From positions 62,001 through 126,000 of the forward strand of contig CASFCH010000009.1 of assembly GCA_949293315.1 (NCBI GenBank): a stretch of DNA of 64,000 bases, given 5' to 3'. Below, piece by piece: positions 40,130-61,834 of the stretch. The DNA comes from an uncultured Oscillospiraceae bacterium (GTDB lineage Bacteria > Bacillota > Clostridia > Oscillospirales > Acutalibacteraceae). The stretch's first letter is position 1. The number at the start of each line of letters is the position of its first letter. A model generated the notes under the pieces. That model was not told the DNA's origin and did no database searches. It saw only the letters and a list, made by a program, of their open reading frames with translations. The translations under genes and the position numbers were made by a program.

Positions 40130-41576
40130 CTACTACATAGGACTTGACATAGGTACATCATCTGTCAAAGCGATGCTGATAAGCGAGGATTCCATCATTA
40201 AAACCGTATCTTTGGATTATCCGATCCGCTATCCGAAGCCCGGATACAGCGAACAGGACCCACACGACTGGTTCAACAAAAGCATTGCCGCTGTTCGTTC
40301 GCTTACAGAGGATGTTGATAAGAGCCTTGTTCGGTCCATCGCTTTTTCAGGACAGATGCATGGGCTTGTGCTGCTAGATGAAATAGATGAAGTCATCCGG
40401 CCTGCCATTTTGTGGAACGATGGCAGAAGTGAAAAAGAGGTTGCGTATCTCAACGAAATGATAGGCAAGGATTTTCTTTTGTCCAACACCGGAAACATCG
40501 CCTTTGCGGGCTTTACGGCGCCGAAGCTGCTGTGGGTGCGTGAAAATGAACCGGAAAATTTCAAACGCATACGCAAAATCATGCTGCCTAAAGATTATGT
40601 GGCTTACAGATTTTCCGGCGCATTTGCAACTGACCCATCCGACGCTGCCGGAACGCTGTATTTTGATGTGAAAAACAGACGCTGGTCAAAGCCGATGCTG
40701 AAGCTGCTGCAAGTGGAAGAAAGCAGGCTGCCTCAAATTTTTGAAAGCAGCGCGGCAATAGGCTGTATAAAACCGGAAATTGCGGCGAAGCTCGGGCTTT
40801 CGGCAGATGTGAAAATTGTGATTGGAGCGGGCGATAATGCCGCTTCGGCAATAGGCACCGGCACGATAAACAGCGGCGACTGCAACATCTCTCTCGGCAC
40901 CTCAGGCACGGTATTTGTTTGCGCGGACACATTTGGCTTTGACCGCGAAAATGCCATTCATTCCTTTTGCTCGGCAAACGGAATGTACCATTACCTTGCC
41001 TGTACGCTTACGGCAGCAGCATGCCAAAAATGGTGGGTGGAAGATATTTTGCGCTCCGATTACGCAAGCGAAAACAATATGGAACAATTTATCGGCAACA
41101 GCAGCGTATTGTTTCTGCCCTATCTTATGGGTGAGCGCTCGCCGGTGAACGACACAAATGTCAGGGGTTTATTTGCCGGTCTTTCCATGACAACGGCAAG
41201 GGAAGAAATGACGCTTGCGGTGCTGGAGGGCGTGGCATTTTCGCTTAAGCAAAATGTAGAGGTCATCCGCTCGCTCGGTGTGGACATAAGGCGTTCAAAA
41301 ATCTGCGGCGGCGGCGCAAAAAACAGACTTTGGTGCCGGCTTCTGGCAACGGTTCTGGGTATCGAGCTTGAAGTGCCCGTATTGGAACACGGCGGTGTGC
41401 TGGGCGCATGCCTGCTTGCAGCAATGGGGGACGGAAACGATATTGCGCATAATTTTTACGGCGTAAAAGAAACTATTTCGCCGGACGAGATGTACGCAGA
41501 TTATTACGCACAAAAATATCAAAAATATCTGTCGCTCTATCCGGCGGTAAGCCATCTGAATTCTGCAACATTATAA
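40122..41576 (+). CDS. xylB: FGGY carbohydrate kinase, xylulokinase-like
   Basis: The 484-residue protein begins YYIGLDIGTSSVKAMLI, the ATPase phosphate-1 motif. SIAFSGQMHGLVLLD and ILWNDGR are xylulokinase substrate-site signatures. GDCNISLGTSGTVFVC and KICGGGAKNRLWCRLLATV are the second half of the actin-like fold. It should phosphorylate D-xylulose to enter the pentose phosphate pathway. It is the last gene of the operon and is coupled to the isomerase gene. ATG at 40122 was chosen over 40101 because of a GGAG upstream. Confidence 0.88.
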   Translation: MINYYIGLDIGTSSVKAMLISEDSIIKTVSLDYPIRYPKPGYSEQDPHDWFNKSIAAVRSLTEDVDKSLVRSIAFSGQMHGLVLLDEIDEVIRPAILWNDGRSEKEVAYLNEMIGKDFLLSNTGNIAFAGFTAPKLLWVRENEPENFKRIRKIMLPKDYVAYRFSGAFATDPSDAAGTLYFDVKNRRWSKPMLKLLQVEESRLPQIFESSAAIGCIKPEIAAKLGLSADVKIVIGAGDNAASAIGTGTINSGDCNISLGTSGTVFVCADTFGFDRENAIHSFCSANGMYHYLACTLTAAACQKWWVEDILRSDYASENNMEQFIGNSSVLFLPYLMGERSPVNDTNVRGLFAGLSMTTAREEMTLAVLEGVAFSLKQNVEVIRSLGVDIRRSKICGGGAKNRLWCRLLATVLGIELEVPVLEHGGVLGACLLAAMGDGNDIAHNFYGVKETISPDEMYADYYAQKYQKYLSLYPAVSHLNSATL

Positions 41577-41962: not shown

Positions 41963-42919
41963 TTACCGCTTAGGACACCAGTGAGGGGAGGTTCTCGTGT
42001 ATCTCCCTGGAATATGCTGTCCACTTATTTCTTTATACCTGTTCAGAACCTTTCGGTGGCGACAGATATGCCGGTTTCCCCGCTTGCCTTCTTGGATGAT
42101 TTCACAATCCGGGCAGCTGTTGCACCGGGGAATCGGCTTGTCTTTTGGCCGCTTTAAAAGAACGGGATATTGCTGGATCAGCCGTCCTTTCCAAATGGTG
42201 CGGATGGCACTGTTCCTTTTTATATAGACCGGAGTATCGCTGCGCTGCTCCAAAATTGCGTCCAGCCAATCGCGTTGCGGCAAATTGCGGCGGCTTGGCA
42301 GCAGTTCTTCACAGCCGATGATGATCCATTCCGTTTGGGGCAACAGATAACTTTCTGCAAAAGCGCCCAAGGGCTCGATGCAGACAAAAGTATGGTACTG
42401 ATCGGAAATGAACGCCTCCGACAGACTATTGATCCGCGTCCCATACCAGAAATTGTCTCCTGCCGGCAACAGACCGAGATGGCTCAGCTCCGCATACCGC
42501 TCCGGATTCTTTGTCAGGAATAAGTAGTTGTGCCACGGAGCCGCCCTGCAGGCGTCAAAAACCGCTGTGATCCATTCCAAAGGCACCCAGTCTCCGAACA
42601 ATTCGCCCATACCGCATACATAGATGTTGGCAGGCTTTTTCTTGTCAGTTACCATACGCAGACGATAGCGGTGAAGCGTTGGCTCAAAGCCGGCTGGAAA
42701 CTGAAGCACATGATCTTCTTCGTTATGAAAGGGCTTTTCCAGAGCAAACAGCCTGTTTTTCCAATCGCACTGGATTTGCGGGCTGCCGAGATTCAGCCGC
42801 ACTGCCCCACAAAGCCTTGACGCCAGCTTGCGGCCATAACAGAAATCACACTGTATTTTACAGCCGGTGACAGGGTTCCATGAGAAATCGCACCAACCGA
42901 TCTGACTTTTATTCATCAT
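41963..42919 (-). CDS. DUF5131/phage Gp37-Gp68-like protein with radical-SAM-type cysteine motif
   Basis: The 318-residue protein starts with SQIGWCDFSWNPVTGC followed by a C-x3-C-x2-C motif (Cys 20, 24, 27), the pattern that binds the radical-SAM 4Fe-4S cluster. The remainder (YLFLTKNPERYAEL, EWIIIGCEE) fits the Gp37/Gp68 family. A late CNSCPDCEI motif may bind a second metal. No biochemical role is established that I know of. It is the last gene in a minus-strand set of Cys-rich proteins. Confidence 0.85.
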   Translation of the reverse strand: MMNKSQIGWCDFSWNPVTGCKIQCDFCYGRKLASRLCGAVRLNLGSPQIQCDWKNRLFALEKPFHNEEDHVLQFPAGFEPTLHRYRLRMVTDKKKPANIYVCGMGELFGDWVPLEWITAVFDACRAAPWHNYLFLTKNPERYAELSHLGLLPAGDNFWYGTRINSLSEAFISDQYHTFVCIEPLGAFAESYLLPQTEWIIIGCEELLPSRRNLPQRDWLDAILEQRSDTPVYIKRNSAIRTIWKGRLIQQYPVLLKRPKDKPIPRCNSCPDCEIIQEGKRGNRHICRHRKVLNRYKEISGQHIPGRYTRTSPHWCPKR

Positions 42920-42959
42920 ACAAGTGAATGCCTCCTTTCTGGCATATGTTGATGATTTT

Positions 42960-43628
42960 TTACTTATTTTGAAGGCTCTTGAGTTTGGCGGCTAAAAATG
43001 CCATGTTATCCTGAAACTGAGGTAAAAACGGTTCAGAGAAATCATAGGCAAAATAGTAAAAGCTGAGTGTCAATATCTCCGCTTCACGCAGTCGTGCTTT
43101 GGGAATCTCATGGAGCAGTTCCCCAATCAACGGAATACGCTTATCTTCCTCCCTGAAAAAGAGGCTATCTTCATCCTGCAGAAATCTCCGCTGCCATTCG
43201 CGGGCGGTCACATGGCCACCTCGAAAATGATGGAGCTGATCCAAACACAGTTCCCAGTCTGCGCTTCCGTCTGCTTTGAATTTCGGCGAGAATGGATAGA
43301 TCCGGCATGTAAAAGGCCGGGCTGCATAAACGGTACAGCGGTTATCCTGCAAAAAGGTGCAGACGCCGTTATTGGCTGTTTTCAGCACATAGACATAAAA
43401 ACCGCGGGTCAGTTCTTTCAGTTCTGCAATACTCTCCAAAGTTTCCATCGGCTGAATCTTGACGCCTTCCTTTTGCAGGAAGTTAATCAGCCGGTAGGTG
43501 TCCAGCGGCGTTAAAAGAAGGCTGTCCCGGACATTTTTGCAGCAGGCGCCGCAGCCGGTGCAGGAAAAAACAATACGCTCCCGGGCGGTTACCTTTTGTA
43601 TGTTTGAGAATTTCGGAAAAATAAACAT
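42960..43628 (-). CDS. YkgJ-family cysteine-cluster protein
   Basis: The 222-residue protein has the YkgJ signature: FSCTGCGACCKNVRDSL near the N-terminus, then CTFLQDNRCTVYAARPFTCR, giving the CxxCxxCC and spaced-Cys pattern thought to bind a metal or iron-sulfur cluster. The function is unknown. The ATG at 43628 has GGAGG upstream, while a longer frame to 43706 includes the previous gene's end. It starts immediately after the upstream 162-residue gene, so the two are coupled. Confidence 0.85.
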   Translation of the reverse strand: MFIFPKFSNIQKVTARERIVFSCTGCGACCKNVRDSLLLTPLDTYRLINFLQKEGVKIQPMETLESIAELKELTRGFYVYVLKTANNGVCTFLQDNRCTVYAARPFTCRIYPFSPKFKADGSADWELCLDQLHHFRGGHVTAREWQRRFLQDEDSLFFREEDKRIPLIGELLHEIPKARLREAEILTLSFYYFAYDFSEPFLPQFQDNMAFLAAKLKSLQNK

Positions 43629-43629
43629 T

Positions 43630-44118
43630 TCACATCCCTCCGTGATATTTGCAGACGGCTCCGAAATAGTAAGGGGTTTTCGGATCAACCGTCCGCAGGA
43701 ATTCATCCATCGGAATCAGCTGGTTGACATCCAGGCAGACATAATCGTCGTTTTCATCCACTAAGACTTTCATCAAATCCGACACCATATCCCGTACTTT
43801 GTCAAAGCACAGCAGATAGATCCCTTCAGTGACTCTGGCAAGGTTGAGGGTGAGATGATGAAACCGAGCATAACGGTCTGCAAAATGACGCTCGCAGGAT
43901 GCGGCTGGCGAAAACCGTATCACTCCGCTGTCCACATTCCCTAATTCTTCTTTTTTGAGCCACTTTGTAAATTCCTTAATGGCGGCATCCCGTTCTTCTT
44001 CCTTTATATCATCGACATAATTGCTACTTGAAAGAAATAGGGGATGGTCGCTGAGCAGATCGGCGTCTGTCCATTCTTCATCAGGCTGGCGAAGAAGCTG
44101 ATAAATATTGCAGTACAT
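43630..44118 (-). CDS. Conserved hypothetical protein of the element, 162 residues
   Basis: I do not recognise the family. The protein (start MYCNIYQLLRQPDEEWTDAD) is acidic and soluble, with FADRYARFHHLTLNLARVTE and NDDYVCLDVNQLIPMDEFLR as its most distinctive parts. GGAGG precedes the ATG, and the next gene (YkgJ family) begins right at its stop, so they are probably made together. Confidence 0.7.
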   Translation of the reverse strand: MYCNIYQLLRQPDEEWTDADLLSDHPLFLSSSNYVDDIKEEERDAAIKEFTKWLKKEELGNVDSGVIRFSPAASCERHFADRYARFHHLTLNLARVTEGIYLLCFDKVRDMVSDLMKVLVDENDDYVCLDVNQLIPMDEFLRTVDPKTPYYFGAVCKYHGGM

Positions 44119-44143
44119 AATAAGAGCGTCCTCCTTCAAATGA

Positions 44144-44170
44144 GAAGCCGCAGCAGGTCGCTGCGGCTTC
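44144..44170. other. Intercistronic hairpin
   Basis: GAAGCCGCAGC pairs with GCTGCGGCTTC around a 5-nt loop, between two minus-strand genes. It lacks a proper T tract and is probably an mRNA-processing or stability element. Confidence 0.6.
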
Positions 44171-44180
44171 CCGGTTGTCT

Positions 44181-44408
44181 TTACGCACACATTTTTAACG
44201 GTACGGCGCTTTGCACGGGGATCGGCGCGGGCGCTGAAACGCAGTAAACGGAGTTCATTGTTTCAAAGCACGCATAATCCTCACGCTGCTCCAGGATCTC
44301 CACCACGCAGGACGTACAGATGCAATCGCCTCCGCGTTGGATAACTGCCCGTTTCCCTTCACTCAGCGGGAACAGAAGATAGCCGCTGATATGCACTGTC
44401 TTTTTCAT
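44181..44408 (-). CDS. Small element protein of 75 residues with Cys pair
   Basis: The protein starts MKKTVHISGYLLFPLSEGKR and contains GGDCICTSCVVEI, a CxCxxC group that could bind metal. The start is ATG at 44408 with a GGAG-like site. A longer frame to 44546 overlaps most of the upstream gene and was rejected. The function is unknown. Confidence 0.6.
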   Translation of the reverse strand: MKKTVHISGYLLFPLSEGKRAVIQRGGDCICTSCVVEILEQREDYACFETMNSVYCVSAPAPIPVQSAVPLKMCA

Positions 44409-44694
44409 TTTCTCCATCTCCTTCCTCATGAAAATAACATCGGCCGTGCTTGCATTCTCCCTGTTTGAAGCAAGGCGTTTCTTCCGCATAATAGGGCCGG
44501 CAGATTTTTTTGCCCGCTTTCTGCAAAGCCGTCTGTGCCGCCTCAACGATAGGGCAGATTACAGACATATCCCATGCGAGTATGTCTTCTGCTGCTGTCT
44601 GCTCCGGGTGTGTCCGCAGCAGTGCGGCCGCCAGTTCATAAGCTGCGTTGTCAATTTCGTTTCCCTTATATGCAAGGAAGTCTTCAAACTCCAT
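44359..44694 (-). CDS. Small element protein of 111 residues with C-terminal Cys cluster
   Basis: The product starts MEFEDFLAYKGNEIDNAAYE and ends in a Cys-rich segment (ETPCFKQGECKHGRCYFHEE), possibly metal binding. It overlaps the next gene by 50 nt, which is unusual but both frames look coding. The ribosome site is weak. I do not recognise the family. Confidence 0.6.
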   Translation of the reverse strand: MEFEDFLAYKGNEIDNAAYELAAALLRTHPEQTAAEDILAWDMSVICPIVEAAQTALQKAGKKICRPYYAEETPCFKQGECKHGRCYFHEEGDGENEKDSAYQRLSSVPAE

Positions 44695-44710: not shown

Positions 44711-45247
44711 TCACCCGCATAACACACGGATGATCGTGGGATAAGCACCGGCCAGCAGCTCGTTGATGGCGCGGTAGGTCATATGCTCCGCTTTTGCAAT
44801 CTCGTTCATTTGCCTGCCGTCTGCTTTCATACGGATGATCCGCATTTCACGGGGCGGCAATTCACACGCCAGCGCATGAAGCAGCAGTTCGGTTTCAAAA
44901 TCCAGCATCATGCTGTCCGGAATGCTGACAATATCGCCCCAGCACAGGCCGGAAATGCTGTCTATTTCTTCATCAAAGCTGACAACCGGAGCGCATCGCT
45001 TCGGCCTGGTCAGATATTTCGTATATTTTGAAAGCTCGCTTTCCATCCACTTCCACGCAATCGTGGAAAAGCGGTACCGGCTTTTCTTTTTCCGTACGCA
45101 GTATTTCTGCACCGCTTTCAGATAGCCGAATATCACGACGTCGTAATACAGCGAAACTGGCAGTTCCTTTTCCCGCAGGAAAGCGAACACCAGCTCGTGG
45201 TTCTCCGCCGCAAAGCGCCTTTCTTCAGTGTTCAATGGCTTTATCAT
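44711..45247 (-). CDS. Sigma-70-like RNA polymerase sigma factor of the element
   Basis: The 178-residue protein has a region-2-like part (SLYYDVVIFGYLKAVQKYC, RFSTIAWKWMESELSKY) and a region-4-like helix-turn-helix at the end (LPPREMRIIRMKADGRQMNEI then TYRAINELLAG). It could direct transcription of element promoters such as the shared boxes at 19,139 and 53,591, but this is inference. It has GGAGG upstream and follows a double hairpin. Confidence 0.75.
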   Translation of the reverse strand: MIKPLNTEERRFAAENHELVFAFLREKELPVSLYYDVVIFGYLKAVQKYCVRKKKSRYRFSTIAWKWMESELSKYTKYLTRPKRCAPVVSFDEEIDSISGLCWGDIVSIPDSMMLDFETELLLHALACELPPREMRIIRMKADGRQMNEIAKAEHMTYRAINELLAGAYPTIIRVLCG

Positions 45248-45334: not shown

Positions 45335-46186
45335 TTACAGCGGCAGGTCTCCGCGTTCACCGTCGATAACATCGCCGGTGATAGTAAAATGGCTGCCGCT
45401 TTCTGTGGTCTGGTAGTCATTTTCCAGATCATAGACCGTCGTATCCGACATACTCTCCGTTAATGCGGCACGCTGCTGGTTCATCAGGCGTACCTGTTCG
45501 CGGAAGGAATCGGCATACTGTTTGACCTGGGCCAGCTGTTCGCCCGTGATGTTCGCTACCTTACGGAAAGAAGCGATACTGTACGGGCTGCTGCCGTTGT
45601 CCACCCGTTTCAAACTGATCTGCGCAATAGCGGACCAGGTGGGGCGGCGACGCGTGATAAACGCCGTATTCATAAACTCGTTGAACGGCTTCAGGCTGGT
45701 CGGAGGCAGGGAGAGAAGGAGGGGCAGATATTCTCCGCTTCGCAGAATATAGAGATTCCGCATATTCTTGCAGGCTTTTCCTTTGCTCGGATTGCCCTTC
45801 GCATCCACGCCGGTGCCATACTTATTCAGAGCGCACAGGGCGCACGCCCCGCCAGGTTCGCCGATGCCGGTTTTCCCGTCTACCGAAGAGCAGAGCGGCG
45901 GCACATTGTCATCATATTCCGCGCCCTCCGGCCAATAGGCACCGGCCGCGTGGTTGTAGACGATGATCACTTCAATGGTTTTGACCGAATCGGGGCTCTC
46001 CGGATCATCGCCCGGGACTTCAAAGCTGACCGCTCCGCCGCCGGGAATCTTGACCCGGGGGAAATTCACCTGAAGGCCGTCGAAATCCTCGGCAAGCTCT
46101 TCGCTCGAAAAGTTATCCTCCGGCATCATGTCGGGCAGGATAAAATTGCTGACGGTTTCCATTAAAGCAGTATCGTTGTAAGACAT
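45335..46186 (-). CDS. Conserved element protein with Cys motif, unknown (283 residues)
   Basis: The protein begins MSYNDTALMETVSNFILPDM. It has an acidic N-terminal region, then GGGAVSFEVPGDDPESPDSV, and a central Cys group (PPLCSSVDGKTG...GGACALCALNKYG...GKACKNM) likely to bind zinc. The C-terminal part is helical. I do not recognise the family. Its position between a DUF932 gene and a sigma-like gene in the SSB operon suggests a role in DNA processing, which is inference. Confidence 0.75.
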   Translation of the reverse strand: MSYNDTALMETVSNFILPDMMPEDNFSSEELAEDFDGLQVNFPRVKIPGGGAVSFEVPGDDPESPDSVKTIEVIIVYNHAAGAYWPEGAEYDDNVPPLCSSVDGKTGIGEPGGACALCALNKYGTGVDAKGNPSKGKACKNMRNLYILRSGEYLPLLLSLPPTSLKPFNEFMNTAFITRRRPTWSAIAQISLKRVDNGSSPYSIASFRKVANITGEQLAQVKQYADSFREQVRLMNQQRAALTESMSDTTVYDLENDYQTTESGSHFTITGDVIDGERGDLPL

Positions 46187-46223
46187 AAATTCGTTCCTCC
46201 AATTTCATTTGATTTTTAACTGC

Positions 46224-47297
46224 CTAAGCGGCAGCGCTGTTCAGATGGTTCCAATGCGAATCGGATATGGACAGGATCCCAAACCCGATTCCTTCCAGTT
46301 CGGTCGCACGGTCATAGCTTTCGACCTGCTGGCCGTACTGCGATACGGCGTTGGCAAGTCCGTACCGGTTCATTTCACCGCTTTGGGTAAGGGACAGCAG
46401 AACGCCGTCCTGCTCGGTTTCCGTTACATGAAATTCTCCGCACACCGCTCTGACGACGCCGGGAATATCATCAGCGTTCATCGGCGCCGCACGTGCGTTG
46501 CGGATTTGCTCCATAAGCTGTAAAAAGCGGTTTTCGTCAAACGCTTCATGAATGGTCTGCCGGATTTTCATCAGAAAAGGCGAGCCTTCCATAAGTGTGT
46601 ATTGTTCCGGGCGGATCTGAAACATCGTGTCCGCAGAATAGACCGGACCGGAGTGGTTCCTCCTGGCGGTAGCCGTCTGTACGATCATTCCGAGATCTTT
46701 TTCCGGACAGTATATCATCGGCTGGATATTGACCGAACCGGCTCCGATTTCACTGTTGCTGATCAAAAGCGCCGACTGGATGGTCAGATCCGGCCCTACG
46801 CTCTGCTGAAGGCCAGGGTGCGCCAACTTAATATACATACGGCTTTCGGTCATCTGGCAGCTGAGAAACTGCACGTCGGGAATTTCGCCCAGAATGGGGA
46901 TTACCGCGCAGGACACCTCATGATGGTCAATCCGCAGATACCGGTTGCTGACAAATGCGCGCATCCGGCCGTCCAGCACCCGCAGCATCCGCTGCGCGTC
47001 GGCGCGGGAAAACCAGCCGTTGACATTTTCCGTCAGCAGCTTGGGGTATTCATCGAGCATCCGGCTGTAATATTTCGCCGGAATGTTCAGATAAGCGCCG
47101 ATCTGACGGTGCGCGTAATCGCCGATATCCAATGGCTCGATACGGTCTATGCCGCTGTTGTCAAGCACATGCAGTACAAGGCTTTCGCCGCAGGGCTCCA
47201 TAAACAGCCGGTGCGCGTGGACGATATAATCCGTTTTGCATTCCTTCTGCCGCATGATCTCAGCGGCCAGCTCCTCCATTGTCGTACCCGCTTTCAT
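46224..47297 (-). CDS. DUF932 family protein
   Basis: The 357-residue protein matches DUF932, found widely in phages and plasmids. Typical parts are YLNIPAKYYSRMLDEYPKLL, WFSRADAQRMLRVLDGRMRA and FVSNRYLRIDHHEV, then ISNSEIGAGSVNIQP. The molecular role of the family is unclear, and association with recombination functions is common. It starts with an ATG preceded by GGAGG and lies 33 nt after the previous gene. Confidence 0.85.
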   Translation of the reverse strand: MKAGTTMEELAAEIMRQKECKTDYIVHAHRLFMEPCGESLVLHVLDNSGIDRIEPLDIGDYAHRQIGAYLNIPAKYYSRMLDEYPKLLTENVNGWFSRADAQRMLRVLDGRMRAFVSNRYLRIDHHEVSCAVIPILGEIPDVQFLSCQMTESRMYIKLAHPGLQQSVGPDLTIQSALLISNSEIGAGSVNIQPMIYCPEKDLGMIVQTATARRNHSGPVYSADTMFQIRPEQYTLMEGSPFLMKIRQTIHEAFDENRFLQLMEQIRNARAAPMNADDIPGVVRAVCGEFHVTETEQDGVLLSLTQSGEMNRYGLANAVSQYGQQVESYDRATELEGIGFGILSISDSHWNHLNSAAA

Positions 47298-47330
47298 GCG
47301 TTTTCACCTCCTTTCCCGCAGGCGGGACCG

Positions 47331-48155
47331 TTACCACGACAAAAGGATGCCGTTGTCGGTGATATCCGCCGCCATGCCTTCCCGTTCAAAGACCTTGACA
47401 AGCCTGGGCCAGTACATCCGTTCCGGCACCGATTCAAAAGCCAGCTTGACAACATCGGCGTTTGCCTGCTGAATGGAAATCTCGCCGTTTTCTCTGATTG
47501 TCAGGCTACTGTGCCCTCGGGAGTCCAGATCGGCTATCAGGTTTTTGAGTACCTTGCGTGCCTTCACTTCGTACCACACCTGCGGATCAACCGTGTTTTT
47601 CGGCTTCTGTTCCGCTTCTGCCGTGTCAGCCGGAGGAGCAGGATTCCCGTTCAGATCAGCCAACGGTACGATTTTCAGCATAGCACAGCGGATGCCGGCA
47701 TTCTGATCGAATGTCACGTCGGCGTAATTGAAGTCGGCAACTCCGAAAATCTGAATTCTGCCGATGCCGCCCTTTGATACGATGCGTTCGGGAAATTCCT
47801 CACGCCATTCCCATGTGGCGTCCGGATACACAGACTGAATATACGATGAAATGCGGTAGTTCACATGCCTCAGCAGGACGGTTTCCGCCGGATCGGATAA
47901 ATCCGGAATCTCACACTTCGTTTTTTCTTCCTGCGACTCGCACTGCTTTCGTATCCTGCGGGCCTTATAGCGGTATGTCTGCGCTTTGACATAGGGCACC
48001 AGGAACCATACGGCGGCCCAGATTCCCCACGCGGCGAAAGCGGCCGCAAAGAGCCATACCTGCAGCTGCCCACGGGCAAAAGCGGTTATGGCAAGCACCA
48101 ATACAATCAATACCGATACGCCCGACCAAAGAGATTTTTTGTCTTTCATCATCAT
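47331..48155 (-). CDS. Membrane-anchored element protein, unknown (274 residues)
   Basis: Two adjacent N-terminal hydrophobic segments (LWSGVSVLIVLVLAITAFA and VWLFAAAFAAWGIWAAVWFL) are followed by a soluble domain of about 220 residues ending FEREGMAADITDNGILLSW. The hairpin membrane anchor suggests the domain faces the cytoplasm. The start chosen is the first of three ATGs at 48155, downstream of a GAAAGG. I do not recognise the family. Confidence 0.7.
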   Translation of the reverse strand: MMMKDKKSLWSGVSVLIVLVLAITAFARGQLQVWLFAAAFAAWGIWAAVWFLVPYVKAQTYRYKARRIRKQCESQEEKTKCEIPDLSDPAETVLLRHVNYRISSYIQSVYPDATWEWREEFPERIVSKGGIGRIQIFGVADFNYADVTFDQNAGIRCAMLKIVPLADLNGNPAPPADTAEAEQKPKNTVDPQVWYEVKARKVLKNLIADLDSRGHSSLTIRENGEISIQQANADVVKLAFESVPERMYWPRLVKVFEREGMAADITDNGILLSW

Positions 48156-48189
48156 TCGTTCATCCTTTCGTTCTAATTTTTCTGCAAAT

Positions 48190-48235
48190 AAAAAAAGGAA
48201 CCATATGCGTCCTTTCTCAAAACACATACGGTTCC
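48190..48235 (-). terminator. Intrinsic terminator directly after ssb
   Basis: On the minus strand GGAACCGTATG pairs with CATATGGTTCC (one mismatch) and is followed by seven Ts. It lies 16 nt after the ssb stop, so most transcripts from the 48,882 promoter may end after ssb alone. Confidence 0.85.
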
Positions 48236-48250
48236 TCTGCGCGCCGGTTG

Positions 48251-48649
48251 TCATCCCGGCAGGGGTTCTCTGTCTCCGTCAATTTCCGCAGATGCTGCGG
48301 TCAATTTGGAGGGTGGTTGTTCCAACACATCTTTGTTTGCGATCGGGACAAAGCCCCAGTTATCCAGCAATATTTTCAGCCGCTTGTCTGTGGTGGTCCC
48401 GCCTTTTCCGGTGAATATTTCCAGTTCCAGAGAACCGGACACCCAGATCAGGCTGCCTTTCTTTACGCGGGCCCGAATAAGCCTGTCGGCATCGCCGCCC
48501 ATCGCGCAGATCTGAAAATACTGCGTCCTGCTGTGCCCTCTGCCGCCGATGTTCTCGGCGATATCGAAACGCACATAGGGATGCTGGTTTATACTGATCT
48601 TTCGTTCTAAATCAGCGGTTACCCGGCCAATCACATAGGTCTGTGCCAT
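48251..48649 (-). CDS. ssb: Single-stranded DNA-binding protein
   Basis: The 132-residue protein has the OB-fold order of SSB: TYVIGRVTADLERKIS, then FDIAENIGG, TQYFQICAMGGDADRLIRAR and KKGSLIWVSGSLELEIF. It lacks the long C-terminal acidic tip typical of housekeeping SSB. It is probably the element's own SSB protecting transferred single strands. The ATG at 48649 has AAAGGAG upstream. It is the first gene behind the promoter-leader module at 48,690-48,903. Confidence 0.88.
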   Translation of the reverse strand: MAQTYVIGRVTADLERKISINQHPYVRFDIAENIGGRGHSRTQYFQICAMGGDADRLIRARVKKGSLIWVSGSLELEIFTGKGGTTTDKRLKILLDNWGFVPIANKDVLEQPPSKLTAASAEIDGDREPLPG

Positions 48650-48688
48650 CTCGCTCCTTTCTGCCTTTCGGCCAAAATATCTATATAT

Positions 48689-48903
48689 AAAAAAGAGCCG
48701 GCACACAGTTTCCGCCCATGAGGGCAAAACCGTACTGTCGACACTTTGCATACAAACTTGACAAACGTGTGCAATGTGGAGAACACCCCACGATACAAAC
48801 CAACAAGGTCTGCAAATCCAAAAGGATCACGCACAAAAATCAATTACAATGCCATTGTAACACTATATCTTGTGTTTGTCAAGTTTATAAAATCAATATA
48901 TAG
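48689..48903 (-). promoter_or_regulatory. Promoter-leader module, copy 2, upstream of ssb
   Basis: On the minus strand TTGACA (48877-48882) and TACAAT (48854-48859) have a 17-nt spacer, with CTATATATTG upstream. The leader start GTAATTGATTTTTGTGCG (48830-48847) is identical over 18 nt to the module at 19504-19521. Further shared pieces are a small hairpin, TTGTTG with TTTGTAT nearby, and TTGCACAC. The leader ends in a T-rich tract at 48689-48694. Confidence 0.7.
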
Positions 48904-48963: not shown

Positions 48964-49593
48964 TCATCGGCTTTGCCCGATTAAGTAGGTTACCAGTTTG
49001 TGAACTGTCGTGGCTGGATTGCTGGCGCGGGTCAGAATCTCTGTGCCGTCCCGGCGGAGCTGCTCCGACCTTTTTTCAGCCCGTTTAACCGCTTCCTGCT
49101 GATGAGGCAAAAGATCAAAAAATACGTCCAGGCTTTTTTCGTAATTTTCCAGCCTTCCTCTTTCTTTGAGTAGGCGTATGGCTTCATCGGCGCCCTTCAG
49201 GTGGGCGTTGTGCTGAACAAAATGAAGCAGATACCAGTATTCAAAGCAGGGATTGGAAAAGGCGATGCCATAACCGGCCTGCTCTGCAAATACGGCTGCG
49301 TTTTTCAACGCTTCATCCGTGTTGTCATCGCAGTCGAAAACGCACCAGATTTGGTCGCCGTCTTTCGGATAGTAGGCGGCCGGCTTGAGCATATCCTTCG
49401 CATGGCGGACAAGGTGTTCTGCCGCCTTGTGCTTGGACGAAATAGGGACGATATCTACAAGGCAGTTTCGTGTGCGGAAATGCCTGAAATATTTGGTTTC
49501 CGTTTCTTTGCCCTCGCAAATGATGTAGATGACCGGCCGGCGTTTCCGCCTGGCTGCTCTGTTGGGATTGTATTCTTTCTTCATTCCTGCCAT
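48964..49593 (-). CDS. rloB: RloB-like protein (TOPRIM-type effector of a defence pair)
   Basis: The 209-residue protein shows the RloB/AbiLii pattern: YIICEGKETETKYFRHFR with the TOPRIM-type Glu, WCVFDCDDN with acidic metal ligands, and FSNPCFEYWYLLHF. In known systems of this class the nuclease-like partner acts under control of an ATPase. It overlaps the upstream ATPase gene by 13 nt, indicating a two-gene operon. The phage-defence role is from family knowledge and is untested here. Confidence 0.88.
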   Translation of the reverse strand: MAGMKKEYNPNRAARRKRRPVIYIICEGKETETKYFRHFRTRNCLVDIVPISSKHKAAEHLVRHAKDMLKPAAYYPKDGDQIWCVFDCDDNTDEALKNAAVFAEQAGYGIAFSNPCFEYWYLLHFVQHNAHLKGADEAIRLLKERGRLENYEKSLDVFFDLLPHQQEAVKRAEKRSEQLRRDGTEILTRASNPATTVHKLVTYLIGQSR

Positions 49594-50765
49594 AACCGGT
49601 CACCTCCAATAAACGGGATGGCTCCGAAGCGGCCCTGCAGATAGCCTTTACGGACATTTTCTCCCTTGCGCGGGGAGAAGGAAGCAAGAGAATACAGCTC
49701 CGTCGCAGCGGATTTGTCATTCTTTTCCGCAAACCAGATTTGATCCCGGCGGAGGAAATCCAAGTCCAGCAGGATAGCGTCATGCGTCGTAAAAAGAAGC
49801 TGCGCCCCGTTTGTGTTGACAGAACTGTCCTGTACCATCTCAATCAGCCTTCGTGTCAGCAGCGGATGCATACTGGCCTCGATTTCATCCACGACTAAAA
49901 GAGAGCCGCTGTCCAGCGCCTGCAGCCAGCCGCCGATCCGCGAGAAAAACCGCTGCGTACCGGAGGATTCCTGCTCCATCAGCAACTGGAAATATTCTGT
50001 ATCGCCGCTTTCATTTTGAATACGGTGCGTAGTCGTGATGACCGTTTCATCCTTCTTTCCGCCAAGCGTCTTGATCGTCACATCGGAGATGCCCAAATCA
50101 GCCAGCAGCAGTTCCTTCAGGATACGCGCTTTCCGCTCATCCCCCTTGGCGATTTCCGCGATGGTTTCCGCAGGGACGGACGGCTGATCCAGCATACCGG
50201 TCAGTTTTTCCAAAAACCACTTATAGGCATTTTCCGTCTGCGGCAGATTCCAGTCGTTAGAGGACACCAGATACAGCTTGTTGTCCGGCGTCCGGTTGCT
50301 GAGCGTCGCCTGCTCCGAGACATTCTCCCGAAATTCATATTTCCCGTCTTCCCGGGAAAAAATCAGAGCTTCCCGGCCGTTGGGCCAATGGTAAAGATAT
50401 TCGCTGTAAATTCTCTTTGCATCAAACGAAAAGCCGTATACATAGCGGATGGAGTTGTAGATATACATTACTTCAAAGGAAGTCGGCTTCCCGTTTCCTG
50501 CAAAAGGCTCCCATGGAAGCTTCTGTCCCTTTGAGACCTTGGAAGCGCTGCCGCATACCATGTTCTGCATGGTGAGCAGGGCGTGCAAAACATTGCTTTT
50601 ACCGGCTGCATTCGCTCCGTAAAGGGCAATGACCGGCAGCAGCGTCCGCTTCTCGTCAGGATGGAGCAGGCAGGCTTCCAGTGACTTATCCTTGGATGCG
50701 GCAAAACTGATAACGGCGTTTTCCTTAATGGAACGGTGATTTTCCACACTGAATTGTATGAGCAT
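49581..50765 (-). CDS. rloA: RloA-like AAA ATPase of a defence pair
   Basis: The 394-residue OLD/SMC-like ATPase starts MLIQFSVENHRSIKE, with Walker A in LYGANAAGKSNVLHAL near residue 50. The signature and Walker B lie in SGTQRFFSRIGGWLQAL and SLLVVDEIEASMHPLL, and the His switch is in LFTTHDAILLD. GGGAGG precedes the ATG at 50765, and a longer frame to 50822 overlaps the promoter. It would act with the RloB-like protein. It has its own promoter, so it can be expressed separately from transfer genes. Confidence 0.9.
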   Translation of the reverse strand: MLIQFSVENHRSIKENAVISFAASKDKSLEACLLHPDEKRTLLPVIALYGANAAGKSNVLHALLTMQNMVCGSASKVSKGQKLPWEPFAGNGKPTSFEVMYIYNSIRYVYGFSFDAKRIYSEYLYHWPNGREALIFSREDGKYEFRENVSEQATLSNRTPDNKLYLVSSNDWNLPQTENAYKWFLEKLTGMLDQPSVPAETIAEIAKGDERKARILKELLLADLGISDVTIKTLGGKKDETVITTTHRIQNESGDTEYFQLLMEQESSGTQRFFSRIGGWLQALDSGSLLVVDEIEASMHPLLTRRLIEMVQDSSVNTNGAQLLFTTHDAILLDLDFLRRDQIWFAEKNDKSAATELYSLASFSPRKGENVRKGYLQGRFGAIPFIGGDRLWQE

Positions 50766-50810
50766 AGGCAGATACCTCCCTTTAGACATAGTATATCGTA
50801 TTCTGCCAGC

Positions 50811-50839
50811 ATTATAACACATAAATCTTGAGCAGTCAA
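50811..50839 (-). promoter_or_regulatory. Predicted sigma-A promoter of rloAB
   Basis: On the minus strand TTGACT (50834-50839) and TATAAT (50811-50816) have a 17-nt spacer and lie about 50 nt before the ATPase start. Confidence 0.75.
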
Positions 50840-53685: not shown

Positions 53686-56600
53686 TTATTCGGCAAGAGT
53701 CCGTTTTTTACGGTTTCGTATTACCATGAGTATGATGGCGCCGAGAGAAGCGGAGGCTGCGCCGACCCATAACCAGATGTTGAAATCGTCTCCGGTTTTC
53801 GGCGGTTCTGTCGGTTCTTCCGGTTCCTCCGGCTGCTCCGGCGGTGTAGTCGGTTGGTTGATGAAGCCTACGCCGGCCTCGTTTTCAATCACAACCACCT
53901 GGCCGGCCTCGCGGATTTCAAAGTAATAGTAGCGGTCATCCTTGATGAAGTTCTCCGGGCTGCGTTCCTCGTACAAAAAATATCCGTTATACTTCAGCCC
54001 GTCCAGCCGGTAAACGCCTGTCTCGATTTCCGTCATATGGTCTACAAAGGTATCAACGTCCTTGTCAAACACCTTATTGCCATTGACGTCGAGATAGATT
54101 CCAAACAGCGCATCCGACAGCTTGTTGTCCGGATAATCCGCGTCCACCTTGGTTGTCTGGATCGAACCGGTAATCCACTCGTTGACCGCCTCGATTTCAA
54201 TGCGCTGCGCCTGCTCGCTCACCGTTACCCGGAACAGTTCTCCAGAGAGGACAAATTGCGGCGGGCAGGACAATTCCTTGATAACCCAGTCGCCGAAAGG
54301 CACGCCCAAAAAGGAAAATTCACCCGAGTCCCCGCTTTCATCGGTCATCAGTGCATTTTCCTCCGTAAACTCCGTCTCATCCGGCGCAAACAAACCGAAC
54401 ACGGCGCCGCTAACCCCTTCGCCATCCTCGTTTACCTTCAGGCCGTAGATGTCACCGCGGATCAATTCATTTACAATGGGCTCGCCGTCATTTACGCTGA
54501 TGTGGACAACTGCTGTCTCCTGTCCCTGATAGGCAAATTCAACCGGATATTTTTCATCGGAGATAATGTAGTGGCTGTCGGTTGCGTACTCTTTGACATA
54601 CAGTTTGGAATCCGCCGGCACGTCGGTTTTGAACGTCGCCTTGCCGTTTTCATCACAGTAGACGATCTCCAGCAGTCCATCCGCCGGAATCACGCTGCTG
54701 TCCGCAGCGGTCAGATCCTCAGCAGCGTAAAGCCCCCAGGCAACGTGCCGGATTTCACCGTTCATTCCGAGACCGAAACACTCGTCCTGTTCCAAAATTT
54801 TTTGCAGGTCAATCTGTACCTTCTGCCTTTCGTTGGTGAAGTGTGCTTCAGCAGTTGTGATCTGCACATTTTGTCCCGCATAGCTCAATGTAACGGTAAC
54901 CGGTTCGGGATTGAGCACCATGCCGTAGGGAGCTTTTCGTTCAAAAATCTGGTAAGTGGATAAATACAGGGGCTCGCTGGTTGCCCAGCCGTCTGGGCCG
55001 GTGGTTAAGGTCGCCACCGTTTCGCCTGCACTGTAACGGAGCACACCGCCAGAATAGACATCTTCCGTGGCGACAATATCGTATTCGCCGTCTGCCAGTC
55101 CGGTTTTTGCATAGACCGGCTGATAGATCAGCGGGCTGTCTCCGCCGCCGGCAGTGGTGACGGAAGAAAATACTTCGCCGTCTTTGTAGAGGGAGATAGT
55201 GCCTTTCTGCGGCATATTTTCCTTTTCCACTACAACGACGGTCACACCGCCCTCTTCAGCAGCTTCTTCTGGTACAATATCGAAATAGACCGGCGTGGGA
55301 TCCAGAACATAAGGCTCCACCGTTTCTACTTCTACAAGCGAATAGCCCTTGCCGTAAGGCAGGCTCTCCGGTGTAATGAGCGTCCCATCCTCCGCTGTGT
55401 AGAAGGTGTCAAGCTCCACGACCTCCGGATAGGTGATAGTCATGGTGATCTGATTGCCCTCCGGATCGTAAAGCTCATAGCCATGCCCGGCCAGCGGGAC
55501 AGTATTGCCGGTTTCGGCGTCCTTCTTGACAACCATCACGCGGCTTTCAAACTGCGCGTTGTTCAGCAGATACCGGTATACCTGCCCGTCCTCTGAGATA
55601 AATATATCGATGTCCTTGACGAACTCAGTTCCGGGTACACCCGATTTCGTTTGATGCAACCGATACCAGCCGAAAGGCAGGTCGATACTTTCGTCATAAC
55701 CAAATTCATCGCAAATCAGGATATCCCGATCAGTCTCTTTGGCGTTTTCGTAGGAGCCAGCGGAACGCAGGAACAGTTCAAACTCTGCGCCGGCTTCCGG
55801 CGTTTCAATTCCTGTGGAGCCGTCGCCGCTGTGCTTGATAATGGCAACCCGGCCTTTTAATACATCTTCGTCTGCATCAACGGCTACCTCGTTGTACTCC
55901 AGTTCGTACAGCTCCGGCTCGGCGCCGACTTCGTAAACCTCCGGATTGAGCTTGTAGCCTTCACTTGGTTCCAGCTCTTTGATCGTCCAGCCCGCGCCGC
56001 AGTTGTACCAGTCCGTTGTGAAATCGCCGTTCGGCCCTGTAAAATAGCTGTCTACCAGCTGCCCATCCTTGAACACGCCATACTCGGCATTTTCCAGGCT
56101 GGCGTCGCCTTGGGCGGTACCGGTCTCGCTGTCGGATTTCGTCAGGGTAGCCCGCCATTTCTTCAGTACATTGTCGAACGACTTATGCGTTACCTTGTTC
56201 CACTCAATGGTAGCCTGCTGCGGATCTGGGATAACGTATTTGTCCTCCGTACCCACCTCTTCGAGGGTATAAGTCTGGTCTCCGGAGATCAAAACGTCCT
56301 CAAAAGTGGCGACACCGCGTTCATCGGTGACAGCGTATTCATCTACCGGAAGCCCGGACAGGCTTGTGCCGTACAGATGAAAGGTCTTGTCCTCGACAAA
56401 ACCGTCCTCAGCGGTTTTGGTTACGGAAAGATCACCCCGTTTGAGAACATTATCAAAGGTAACGGTCGCAGTCTGGCCGGATACCACCGTGACTCGTTTG
56501 GTTGCCTGGGGTTCATATTTGTTTTCTGTCTGTTCGGTGATTTCATAGACGCCGGGACGGAGATCCTCCAGCAAAAATGTCCCGTCCGACAGGGTACGGA

Positions 56601-57729
56601 TATCCTGATTGACTCCATTCCCGCTGATATGGAATGGTACGTTGCCCACTTTGCCGTCTTCGCTGGTTTTTACCAGCTTGACGCTGCCCGCAGGTGCGGA
56701 AACTTTAAGGAACGCCGGAACGGGGTCGTTGTTGGCAGGCACGCCGCTCACCATGTCCTGATTGGCATCTTCTTTTCCCGGTACAGACCAGATCAAAAAA
56801 CTGGTAGTATTATTTGTGGAAGGCATTTTGCGGTTGAGCTTTATCAGCACTTCGTCTGTGATCGGACGGGAAGAAGAAAGCGTCAGCTTGTTCCCGCTTA
56901 TGGAAGCAGTGACGTTCCCGCTGGAAGTGATGCGGTAATCCTGAAGGACATTGTTTTTGTCGGTCAGAGTAATGGTGTATTTTCCGTCCACAAAGTCCAT
57001 CTCATAGGTAGGGGCATAGCTCTGAGGAGTCCCGGCAAAGCTCGGGTAGGTGTAGTGCTCTGCCATATCCGACAAAATACGGTCATAAAAGTCCTTGAAA
57101 TACTTGTTGCGGCAGAGCTGTTCGGTCATCGTGCCGCTGTAACCGCTGACCGGATAGGTCTTGTCGTTCAGTTCCGTAGGCGAGCTGCGGAAACCGAGCG
57201 TTATTTGCCAGACGATCAACTGTGTGGCCGAATAGCAGGCATTGGCGTCAGCAGACGTTTCCAGATCGGTGCGGTTCGGATAACCGTAGGCCAAAGCCAG
57301 CGACAATAAATCTTTTTGCTCCACCGACAGCTGTTCATATTTATTGCCGTGCGTCGCGTTGCTGGAGCCGGCATAGCTGGTGTCATCGGGCAGAGGGATC
57401 CCGTGTTCTATGCAAAAGCAGTAGACGTAATCCTTGCCATACACCCAGTCTGATTTGTTCCCTGATAGGCCGGGACGCTTGGCTGTGTAGTCGTGCATGT
57501 TCCGAACCAGCGGAGCGACTGAATAGCCGAAAGGATTGTCTTCGGCGCGCAGCCCGTAGCCTGCAGTGAATTTGTTACCTTCCGCGTCGGTCAGGGTGTA
57601 ATCCCAGCTGACCTCGCACTTGGATATATCCATTGTGACGTCAGCGGCAAAAGCTGTCGTCGGGAGAATTCCAAGGAGCATCACAGCCGCCATCAGCAGA
57701 GAGAGCAGCCGCTTTTTCGTTTTTATCAT
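53686..57729 (-). CDS. Cell-wall-anchored thioester-domain adhesin with CnaB repeats
   Basis: The 1,347-residue surface protein has a signal peptide (LLSLLMAAVMLLGILPTTAFA). A thioester domain follows, with the Cys in VYCFCIEHG (residue 106) and the partner Gln in SATQLIVW (residue 170), able to bond covalently to host or matrix amines. Roughly nine CnaB-like beta-sandwich repeats come next, many with Lys/Glu patterns for isopeptide bonds. A Pro/Glu spacer, a PPKTG sortase motif, a membrane helix and the basic tail NRKKRTLAE close the protein. It probably mediates cell contact, perhaps between mating cells or with the host. Confidence 0.92.
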   Translation of the reverse strand: MIKTKKRLLSLLMAAVMLLGILPTTAFAADVTMDISKCEVSWDYTLTDAEGNKFTAGYGLRAEDNPFGYSVAPLVRNMHDYTAKRPGLSGNKSDWVYGKDYVYCFCIEHGIPLPDDTSYAGSSNATHGNKYEQLSVEQKDLLSLALAYGYPNRTDLETSADANACYSATQLIVWQITLGFRSSPTELNDKTYPVSGYSGTMTEQLCRNKYFKDFYDRILSDMAEHYTYPSFAGTPQSYAPTYEMDFVDGKYTITLTDKNNVLQDYRITSSGNVTASISGNKLTLSSSRPITDEVLIKLNRKMPSTNNTTSFLIWSVPGKEDANQDMVSGVPANNDPVPAFLKVSAPAGSVKLVKTSEDGKVGNVPFHISGNGVNQDIRTLSDGTFLLEDLRPGVYEITEQTENKYEPQATKRVTVVSGQTATVTFDNVLKRGDLSVTKTAEDGFVEDKTFHLYGTSLSGLPVDEYAVTDERGVATFEDVLISGDQTYTLEEVGTEDKYVIPDPQQATIEWNKVTHKSFDNVLKKWRATLTKSDSETGTAQGDASLENAEYGVFKDGQLVDSYFTGPNGDFTTDWYNCGAGWTIKELEPSEGYKLNPEVYEVGAEPELYELEYNEVAVDADEDVLKGRVAIIKHSGDGSTGIETPEAGAEFELFLRSAGSYENAKETDRDILICDEFGYDESIDLPFGWYRLHQTKSGVPGTEFVKDIDIFISEDGQVYRYLLNNAQFESRVMVVKKDAETGNTVPLAGHGYELYDPEGNQITMTITYPEVVELDTFYTAEDGTLITPESLPYGKGYSLVEVETVEPYVLDPTPVYFDIVPEEAAEEGGVTVVVVEKENMPQKGTISLYKDGEVFSSVTTAGGGDSPLIYQPVYAKTGLADGEYDIVATEDVYSGGVLRYSAGETVATLTTGPDGWATSEPLYLSTYQIFERKAPYGMVLNPEPVTVTLSYAGQNVQITTAEAHFTNERQKVQIDLQKILEQDECFGLGMNGEIRHVAWGLYAAEDLTAADSSVIPADGLLEIVYCDENGKATFKTDVPADSKLYVKEYATDSHYIISDEKYPVEFAYQGQETAVVHISVNDGEPIVNELIRGDIYGLKVNEDGEGVSGAVFGLFAPDETEFTEENALMTDESGDSGEFSFLGVPFGDWVIKELSCPPQFVLSGELFRVTVSEQAQRIEIEAVNEWITGSIQTTKVDADYPDNKLSDALFGIYLDVNGNKVFDKDVDTFVDHMTEIETGVYRLDGLKYNGYFLYEERSPENFIKDDRYYYFEIREAGQVVVIENEAGVGFINQPTTPPEQPEEPEEPTEPPKTGDDFNIWLWVGAASASLGAIILMVIRNRKKRTLAE

Positions 57730-59929: not shown

Positions 59930-61834
59930 TTAATGGTCGGACGACATGATATCGTCCTTGGTTGCCGGAACAAAGCCCGGCTGGGATTTCTGCGCATCCG
60001 GCGGTTTCGGTTTCCGGCCGGTGCGTTTTTGGGGCTTTGGCGGAGCGCTCACCTCCTCTCGCGGGAATTTGCTCCACTTCGGAATATGGGCGGAAGCCTT
60101 GCAGGGTTGCAATTTGGAAGCCTCCGGATGATGGGTGTAGTCCAGCTTATCCACCTTCAAAATCTTCCGCCCGCGGATTATCACCAGCGCCTGGGATACC
60201 GGAAGCCGCAGAACTTCGTCCATAGTAAGCAGTTTGCGCCGGCCGACGCCGCTGGTCTCCCGGTACTCCGGCACATAATTGCTCACCCGCCATGTGCCAA
60301 GCTGCTTTGCCTTGCTCTGCACATGGACGGACACTTCGCCGGACCGTTCGCTGATGTATTCAGCGGTCAGCGGATCGGAACAGCCGAGAAAATACTGGAT
60401 ATCGCAGTTTCCCAAAATCTCCTGCCACTGGTTCTGCGGATAACGGTTCTGTAGGCCCGCTAAATTCTGGAACATGCACGACATACTGATATTTCTCGAA
60501 CGAATGACTGAAATGCGGCGTGACAAGCTTTCTATGACCCCGCAGGCGGTCAGCTCTTCGCCCAGCACATGCACCGGGACAGGCAGCCTGCCGCCCGGAC
60601 AGTTTTTATCGGCGTACCGGACAAGCTTAATAAAACAAAAGGATATAAACAGCGACGAAAGAAAATCAAAGGTACTGTCCTGGTCGGAATTGACGACGTA
60701 ATAGGCGCAGGGCTTTTGCCCCGGCATCTCCAGGTCAATTTCATCAAAACTGGTGATATTGCAGATCTTCTTGTTTTGGAAAACCTGCAAGCGCGAACCG
60801 AGACCGATAATAACGCCGCTGCGCACCGTATCGGACGCCTGCTTGAAAATTGCATAGGGCGCTTTGGCAGGGTGGGTGGAAGGCAGCAGGTCGAACAGGC
60901 TGCTCAGTTCCTTTTCCGATGTGCGTGTAATCAGCTTGTAGACCTCTTCCATGGTTTTCCGTCCCTCCGGGTAACCCTGTTCAACATACAAAACCAAAGC
61001 CTTGAGGAGATTCGTTTCTGCGCTGTCCCAGAAGTGATCGCCCCGCTCGCTGCCGGTATTTTTAATAATGACGTCACAAAAGAGCTGTGCCATCAGTTCG
61101 TCTCCTTCGATTTCTGAAAGGCAGGCCCAGGAGTCCGAATTTTCCGGCGACACCAGATTGAAAACGCGGACAGTGTATTCCTTGTCCCGCAAATACTGGC
61201 TGGTGGTTTCATACAGTTCCGATTTGGGATCGCAGATAATCAGCGATTCACCCTGCGCTGCCGCCTGAAGGATGCGGTTGATGCAGTAGGCTCTGGTTTT
61301 CATCGATCCGCTGGCGCCGTATACGGCAATATTCCGGTTGAGCCGGCTGTTCTCTGGCACGCACACATACTTGCCGTTTAACGTACCCAGTATGGTGCCG
61401 GTGTGCTTTTTCAGGCTGGCGGTCAAATCCAGTACTTCCTCCGCTTCCTTTTCGGACATAAATCCGGACGTACCGTAAGTGCCCTTCTTGGAATAGATGA
61501 AATTCCGGTCCTTGTCATATTCGCCTGTATCCCCATAGCCCATCCGCATCACCATAACAATGAGCAGAGCCAGCACGCCGACGCAAATGAGTGCGCCGAT
61601 AACCCCATACGGGAAAGTGAACATGGCCTCAAAGCAGGCGTCCAAAGAAAAGGACGGCATTTCCGGTGATGTCCCGCCTCCGGGTGTGCCACCCGCGGCC
61701 TGCCATTCCCTGTAGTTGCGAATAAACTGCGCGATGTACCCGCCGCCGTAGAGCAGGGCAAAAAGAAGCGGCGGCAGTCCGAAGAGAATCGAAAACAGTC
61801 TTTTGCGTCTTATATGCAAAATCTCCTTTCCCAT
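59930..61834 (-). CDS. VirD4/TraG-type conjugative coupling protein
   Basis: The 634-residue ATPase links the relaxosome to the transfer channel. Two N-terminal membrane helices (about 13-32 and 75-97) are followed by Walker A in VYGASGSMKTRAY (173-180) and Walker B-like ESLIICDPKSELYE. The later motifs PVPVHVLGEELTACG and FQNLAGLQNRYPQNQWQEIL are typical of TraG/VirD4. A basic Pro-rich tail closes the protein. It overlaps the next upstream gene by 25 nt. It is the clearest evidence that the element is conjugative. Confidence 0.93.
   Translation of the reverse strand: MGKEILHIRRKRLFSILFGLPPLLFALLYGGGYIAQFIRNYREWQAAGGTPGGGTSPEMPSFSLDACFEAMFTFPYGVIGALICVGVLALLIVMVMRMGYGDTGEYDKDRNFIYSKKGTYGTSGFMSEKEAEEVLDLTASLKKHTGTILGTLNGKYVCVPENSRLNRNIAVYGASGSMKTRAYCINRILQAAAQGESLIICDPKSELYETTSQYLRDKEYTVRVFNLVSPENSDSWACLSEIEGDELMAQLFCDVIIKNTGSERGDHFWDSAETNLLKALVLYVEQGYPEGRKTMEEVYKLITRTSEKELSSLFDLLPSTHPAKAPYAIFKQASDTVRSGVIIGLGSRLQVFQNKKICNITSFDEIDLEMPGQKPCAYYVVNSDQDSTFDFLSSLFISFCFIKLVRYADKNCPGGRLPVPVHVLGEELTACGVIESLSRRISVIRSRNISMSCMFQNLAGLQNRYPQNQWQEILGNCDIQYFLGCSDPLTAEYISERSGEVSVHVQSKAKQLGTWRVSNYVPEYRETSGVGRRKLLTMDEVLRLPVSQALVIIRGRKILKVDKLDYTHHPEASKLQPCKASAHIPKWSKFPREEVSAPPKPQKRTGRKPKPPDAQKSQPGFVPATKDDIMSSDH

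Follow-up and report, generated by a model that had tools for sequence, protein, structure and literature searches.

We describe here a DUF5131 protein that is encoded at the end of an operon in a conjugative element and is very probably, judging from its cysteine motif and predicted fold, a radical-SAM enzyme resembling spore photoproduct lyase (SPL). Our findings are consistent with a model where an SPL-type radical-SAM gene would have been captured once from phage by a family of conjugative elements. The operon usually carries a YkgJ-type gene without DUF5131, and the adjacency of the two is happenstance; thus, cysteine proteins lying side by side in the window do not imply a shared pathway.

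The window, the whole stretch of 64,000 nucleotides that was analysed (G000:C9:62001-126000), holds a run of five genes (table 1), for which gene calls and coordinates agree with those of an earlier note made from the same DNA, where they were described as consecutive on the minus strand. A GGAGG-type site precedes each main gene of the run. The ATG of the YkgJ gene, with its GGAGG site, lies one base past the stop codon of the 162-aa gene, and, on this arrangement, translation of the two is likely to be coupled, as had been proposed. Rightward of the run, DUF6100 and the type IV coupling protein are found on the same strand, followed by a TraG/VirB4-type ATPase (PF19044, 7e-20 in L031) and DUF5697; leftward, the plus-strand genes of a different operon finish at 41576. 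Thus, the five genes form the distal end of the element operon, and the mobile element suspected from the sequence is, given its type IV secretion genes (coupling protein and TraG/VirB4-type ATPase), a conjugative one. Neither integrase nor relaxase was seen within the examined parts of the window element; among related elements, L061 has an integrase and L062 a MobA/MobL relaxase. Nine related backbone loci were compared (L024 and L061-L068), eight of them long enough to score presence or absence. The AbiL/RloAB pair recurs at the equivalent site of the L061 backbone (67% and 76% identity) and is absent from the other relatives, so this site looks like a hotspot for defence cargo.

Table 1. 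Genes of the run and of the surrounding conjugative element (window coordinates).
Feature	Position	Strand	Evidence
DUF5131 protein, 318 aa	41963..42919	-	PF07505 E 3e-26
YkgJ-type CxxCxxCC protein, ~222 aa	42960..43628	-	PF03692 E 4e-12
162-aa protein	43630..44118	-	sequence; without family match
75-aa protein, small ORF of element backbone	44181..44408	-	alignment of 7 homologues
111-aa protein, C-terminal CX5CX4C, overlapping next gene	44359..44694	-	frameshifted homologue in L062
Sigma-70-like regulator, backbone	44711..45247	-	phrog_351 6e-11; TIGR02937 7e-8, below cut-off; syntenic in relatives
phrog_23155 protein, phrog_1362 protein, 307-aa protein, SSB; backbone	45335..48751	-	syntenic in 7-8 related elements
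RloB + AAA ATPase (AbiLii/AbiLi matches, 8e-31, 2e-93)	48964-50822	-	
1347-aa surface protein, element cargo: thioester domain (TED), eight SpaA repeats, weak LPXTG anchor match	53686-57729	-	
Type IV coupling protein	59930..61834	-	PF02534 8e-45

The DUF5131 protein matches PF07505 with 92.8 bits in the Pfam search (gathering cut-off 28.9) and carries the cluster motif C20-KIQ-C24-DF-C27, of the CX3CX(aromatic)C type. In alignment, 89 of 94 homologues retain CX3CX2C, and Gly19, Cys20, Cys24, Cys27, His130, Asn156, and Glu182 are among the invariant positions of a 17-row alignment. An AlphaFold2 model built on 17 aligned rows (mean pLDDT 86.4, pTM 0.83) displays the partial TIM-barrel fold of radical-SAM enzymes. 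With Foldseek, the first six PDB matches of the model are SPL (best E 1.1e-3, probability 1.00), and VIA-align likewise ranks SPL at the top (Z 12.5, rmsd 3.2, 189 residues, model 1-235), with the next family about 1.5 Z units lower; the matches after SPL are viperin-like enzymes, SuiB, RlmN, NifB, lysine aminomutase, and lipoyl synthase, which are likewise radical-SAM enzymes. The overall fold of SPL is therefore matched by the model, as are, at lower Z, other radical-SAM enzymes. A sequence search of solved structures with the DUF5131 and YkgJ proteins gave no match. Together, conserved motif and predicted fold bear out the earlier description of the protein as radical-SAM-like. The SPL-like core (residues 1-257) is followed by a C-terminal module of cysteines (C266, C269, C272, C286, and C315; ending ..SPxWCPxR), which does not vary among the three element copies and is mostly present also in a subset of prophage copies. 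Cluster spacing varies within the family. A second DUF5131 in the genome of the window (L033, G000:C61:3665-4306) has the non-canonical CX6CX2C spacing (CRKLSPGCQNC) and yet outscores the window protein against PF07505; from these sequences, two cluster spacings seem to be pooled in the one Pfam family. Two further relatives (L086 and L088), from Pirellulales and Chloroflexi bins, have in common a WEMPDG insertion within the three-cysteine motif, which in L086 reads C-x3-C-WEMPDG..-C, an unusual spacing for radical-SAM.

The DUF5131 family is widespread, with at least 489 viral matches besides plasmids, and its neighbourhood is that of DNA genes, a DNA-related context of the sort that the earlier note had suggested. 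Among 64 non-redundant DUF5131 loci, 29 encode a DNA methyltransferase no more than 3 kb away. These are of several unrelated Pfam kinds, with ParB-like/N6_N4, C5, helicase-N6_N4, and D12 types recurring; RecU, SSB, the DNA polymerase III beta clamp, an MmcB-like protein, and a DUF7768/deoxyribosyltransferase-like protein are also recurrent neighbours. In 6 of the 29 loci the methyltransferase adjoins DUF5131 (the sister element L062, L163, L166, L169, L179, and L186), as it does in the class-level locus L221; in the window element itself, no methyltransferase adjoins it. Methyltransferase density is 9-15% of the sequence within 3 kb of DUF5131 versus 5% at 3-5 kb, a modest enrichment that is suggestive only, because near neighbours had served as the source of the seeds. 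In any case, genes of the DNA methyltransferase type abound in phage replication regions.

In a 72-row tree, the DUF5131 proteins of the window, L062, and L074 group together (SH-aLRT 99), nested in a clade of 27 rows that otherwise consists of prophage and viral sequences (SH-aLRT 96), a topology consistent with one transfer event from phage into the element family. All three element copies have lost the GxETG motif (GCEEL, GGYGK, and GCQPF in its place), which is kept by nearly all phage copies; the automatic "xTG" label of L062 in the tree is spurious, stemming from LLETG at another place in the protein. The otherwise near-invariant Lys234 is also missing from L062. Activity or substrate may thus differ in the element clade. 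Nonetheless, none of the three copies is truncated, and all retain CX3CX2C, the C-terminal cysteines, His130, Asn156, and Glu182. The helicase-methyltransferase type of L061 and L067 is also found in L074, where a Fic/DOC family gene lies close upstream of DUF5131 (L074:3867-4580).

From the likeness to SPL and the DNA-gene context, we infer that DUF5131 probably acts on DNA. Residues C20, C24, and C27 would ligate a [4Fe-4S] cluster for SAM cleavage, and the C-terminal cysteines may bind a second metal, probably Zn, and help hold nucleic acid. The substrate would be a base in the DNA of the element or of the host, and the most likely step a radical base modification alongside the co-encoded DNA methyltransferases, such that modified element DNA would be protected from restriction during transfer. 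Of base modification, repair, and defence, we tentatively favour the first, while holding it somewhat short of probable. A bolder proposal, rather unlikely in our estimate, is that DUF5131 enzymes modify, or work with, the bases written by the diverse adjacent methyltransferases, the element clade making a different modification upon loss of GxETG. Direct reversal of a DNA lesion, protecting single-stranded transfer DNA or phage DNA and adding no modification, is possible but not likely: although the best structural match is itself a lesion repair enzyme, and SSB, RecU, and the beta clamp occur beside DUF5131 relatives, identity to SPL is only 11-12%, the catalytic H-donor Cys of SPL (C140, 4FHF numbering) is unmapped in DUF5131, the host, an anaerobic gut-type bacterium, presumably meets little UV, and the methyltransferase neighbours would be left unexplained. 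It is also unlikely that the gene is element cargo for anti-phage defence. The protein does match the PADLOC components PDC-M41B (5e-31) and PDC-M30B (4e-28), and AbiL/RloAB are in the same element; yet the PDC entries are candidates only, the gene adjoins replication genes in phages and prophages, and the usual partner, TcmP, which we assume to be component A of PDC-M30 and PDC-M41, was found beside DUF5131 in one Streptomyces plasmid and one Gordonia phage, and is absent from the other DUF5131 loci. A TcmP-paired system was in fact rejected for the window, with no TcmP (TIGR04474) in the whole genome. More doubtful still is a loss or change of the ancestral activity that would have left the element DUF5131 as a binding protein, acting for example via its C-terminal cysteines; the missing GxETG and Lys234 would suit such a change, but not the full-length copies with their retained cysteines and core residues.

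A single new metalloenzyme pathway uniting DUF5131, YkgJ, the 162-aa protein, and the small Cys proteins, as the earlier note had envisaged, is highly improbable. The genes share a strand and are tightly packed, and DUF5131 and YkgJ are close in L062 also, but their distributions are separate. YkgJ occurs in six of the eight related elements (L024, L062, and L064-L067) and DUF5131 in one (L062); among about 100 DUF5131 loci, the element-type YkgJ lies near DUF5131 in L062 alone. Neither YkgJ nor backbone genes were found at 15 DUF5131 loci drawn from 84,980 genomes or at seven further class-level loci of DUF5131 relatives, and DUF5131 is missing from all 24 viral YkgJ loci. L074 was left out of this judgement, as its contig stops where YkgJ would be expected. 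Thus, the gene-neighbourhood comparison, which had been suggested as a check, gave a general lack of co-occurrence, with the sister element L062 and the distant viral L019 as exceptions, and one pathway for all five genes was rejected on the strength of the distribution across elements, genomes, and viral loci. The L019 contig (L019:20-2131) encodes a distant DUF5131 with a likewise distant PF03692 CxxCxxCC protein 0.7 kb downstream (E 1.5e-7), and is the only such pairing seen outside the element family.

YkgJ is instead a separate, recurrent gene of the element backbone, with no obligate DUF5131 partner. The protein matches PF03692 with 47.1 bits (cut-off 23), and seven cysteines are invariant in all ten sequences (C22, C25, C28, C29, C89, C97, and C107, numbered from the residue following the start Met), giving a CX2CX2CC spacing plus distal cysteines. 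Its model (pLDDT 85.8) found no substantial counterpart in the PDB (best Z 3.9), which does not imply a new fold. In the flagellin lysine methylase FliB, a CX4CX3CC motif binds a [4Fe-4S] cluster needed for SAM-dependent methylation (PMC8598068). Given the similar motif, an Fe-S role is plausible for YkgJ, which is probably a small protein with Fe-S or Zn. At L023:9166-10861 and L025:6810-8257, CxxCxxCC proteins occur in tandem ahead of a conserved protein of ~221-223 aa; one of these elements sits elsewhere in the genome of the window. The 162-, 75-, and 111-aa proteins have no significant family match in Pfam. The first lacks grouped cysteines, and its sole weak relative among the related elements is in L067 (E 5e-7). 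Cysteine groups had been noted across the run: those of DUF5131 and YkgJ are conserved, those of the 75-aa protein are not (six homologues, seven aligned sequences), and the CX5CX4C of the 111-aa protein recurs only in the sole homologue found, the frameshifted one of L062.

No paper was found in a literature search for DUF5131 by name, and the family is so far without assigned function; the link to SPL and the methyltransferase neighbours make it a testable radical-SAM DNA enzyme. If the bolder proposal above holds true, phages and conjugative elements would have a new radical-based way to hypermodify DNA. In comparison with known systems, the YkgJ protein has the clustered cysteines of PF03692 and, in this respect, of FliB; however, the FliB spacing differs, the window protein has just 222 aa, and it does not match the FliB model. 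The component B profiles of PDC-M30 and PDC-M41 are of DUF5131 type and match the window DUF5131. The related model TIGR04471, radical SAM mobile pair protein A, was rejected (62.8 bits, 3e-17; cut-off 355). The three-cysteine cluster motif and the fold over residues 1-235 are common to SPL and the window DUF5131, whereas the C-terminus is different. PF07505 itself (DUF5131, phage Gp37/Gp68 family) is also among the closest systems, with a full-domain match, CX3CX2C, and the same occurrence in phages and mobile elements; from PF07505 and TIGR04471 the window protein differs by its C-terminal Cys module and by belonging to an element clade without GxETG.
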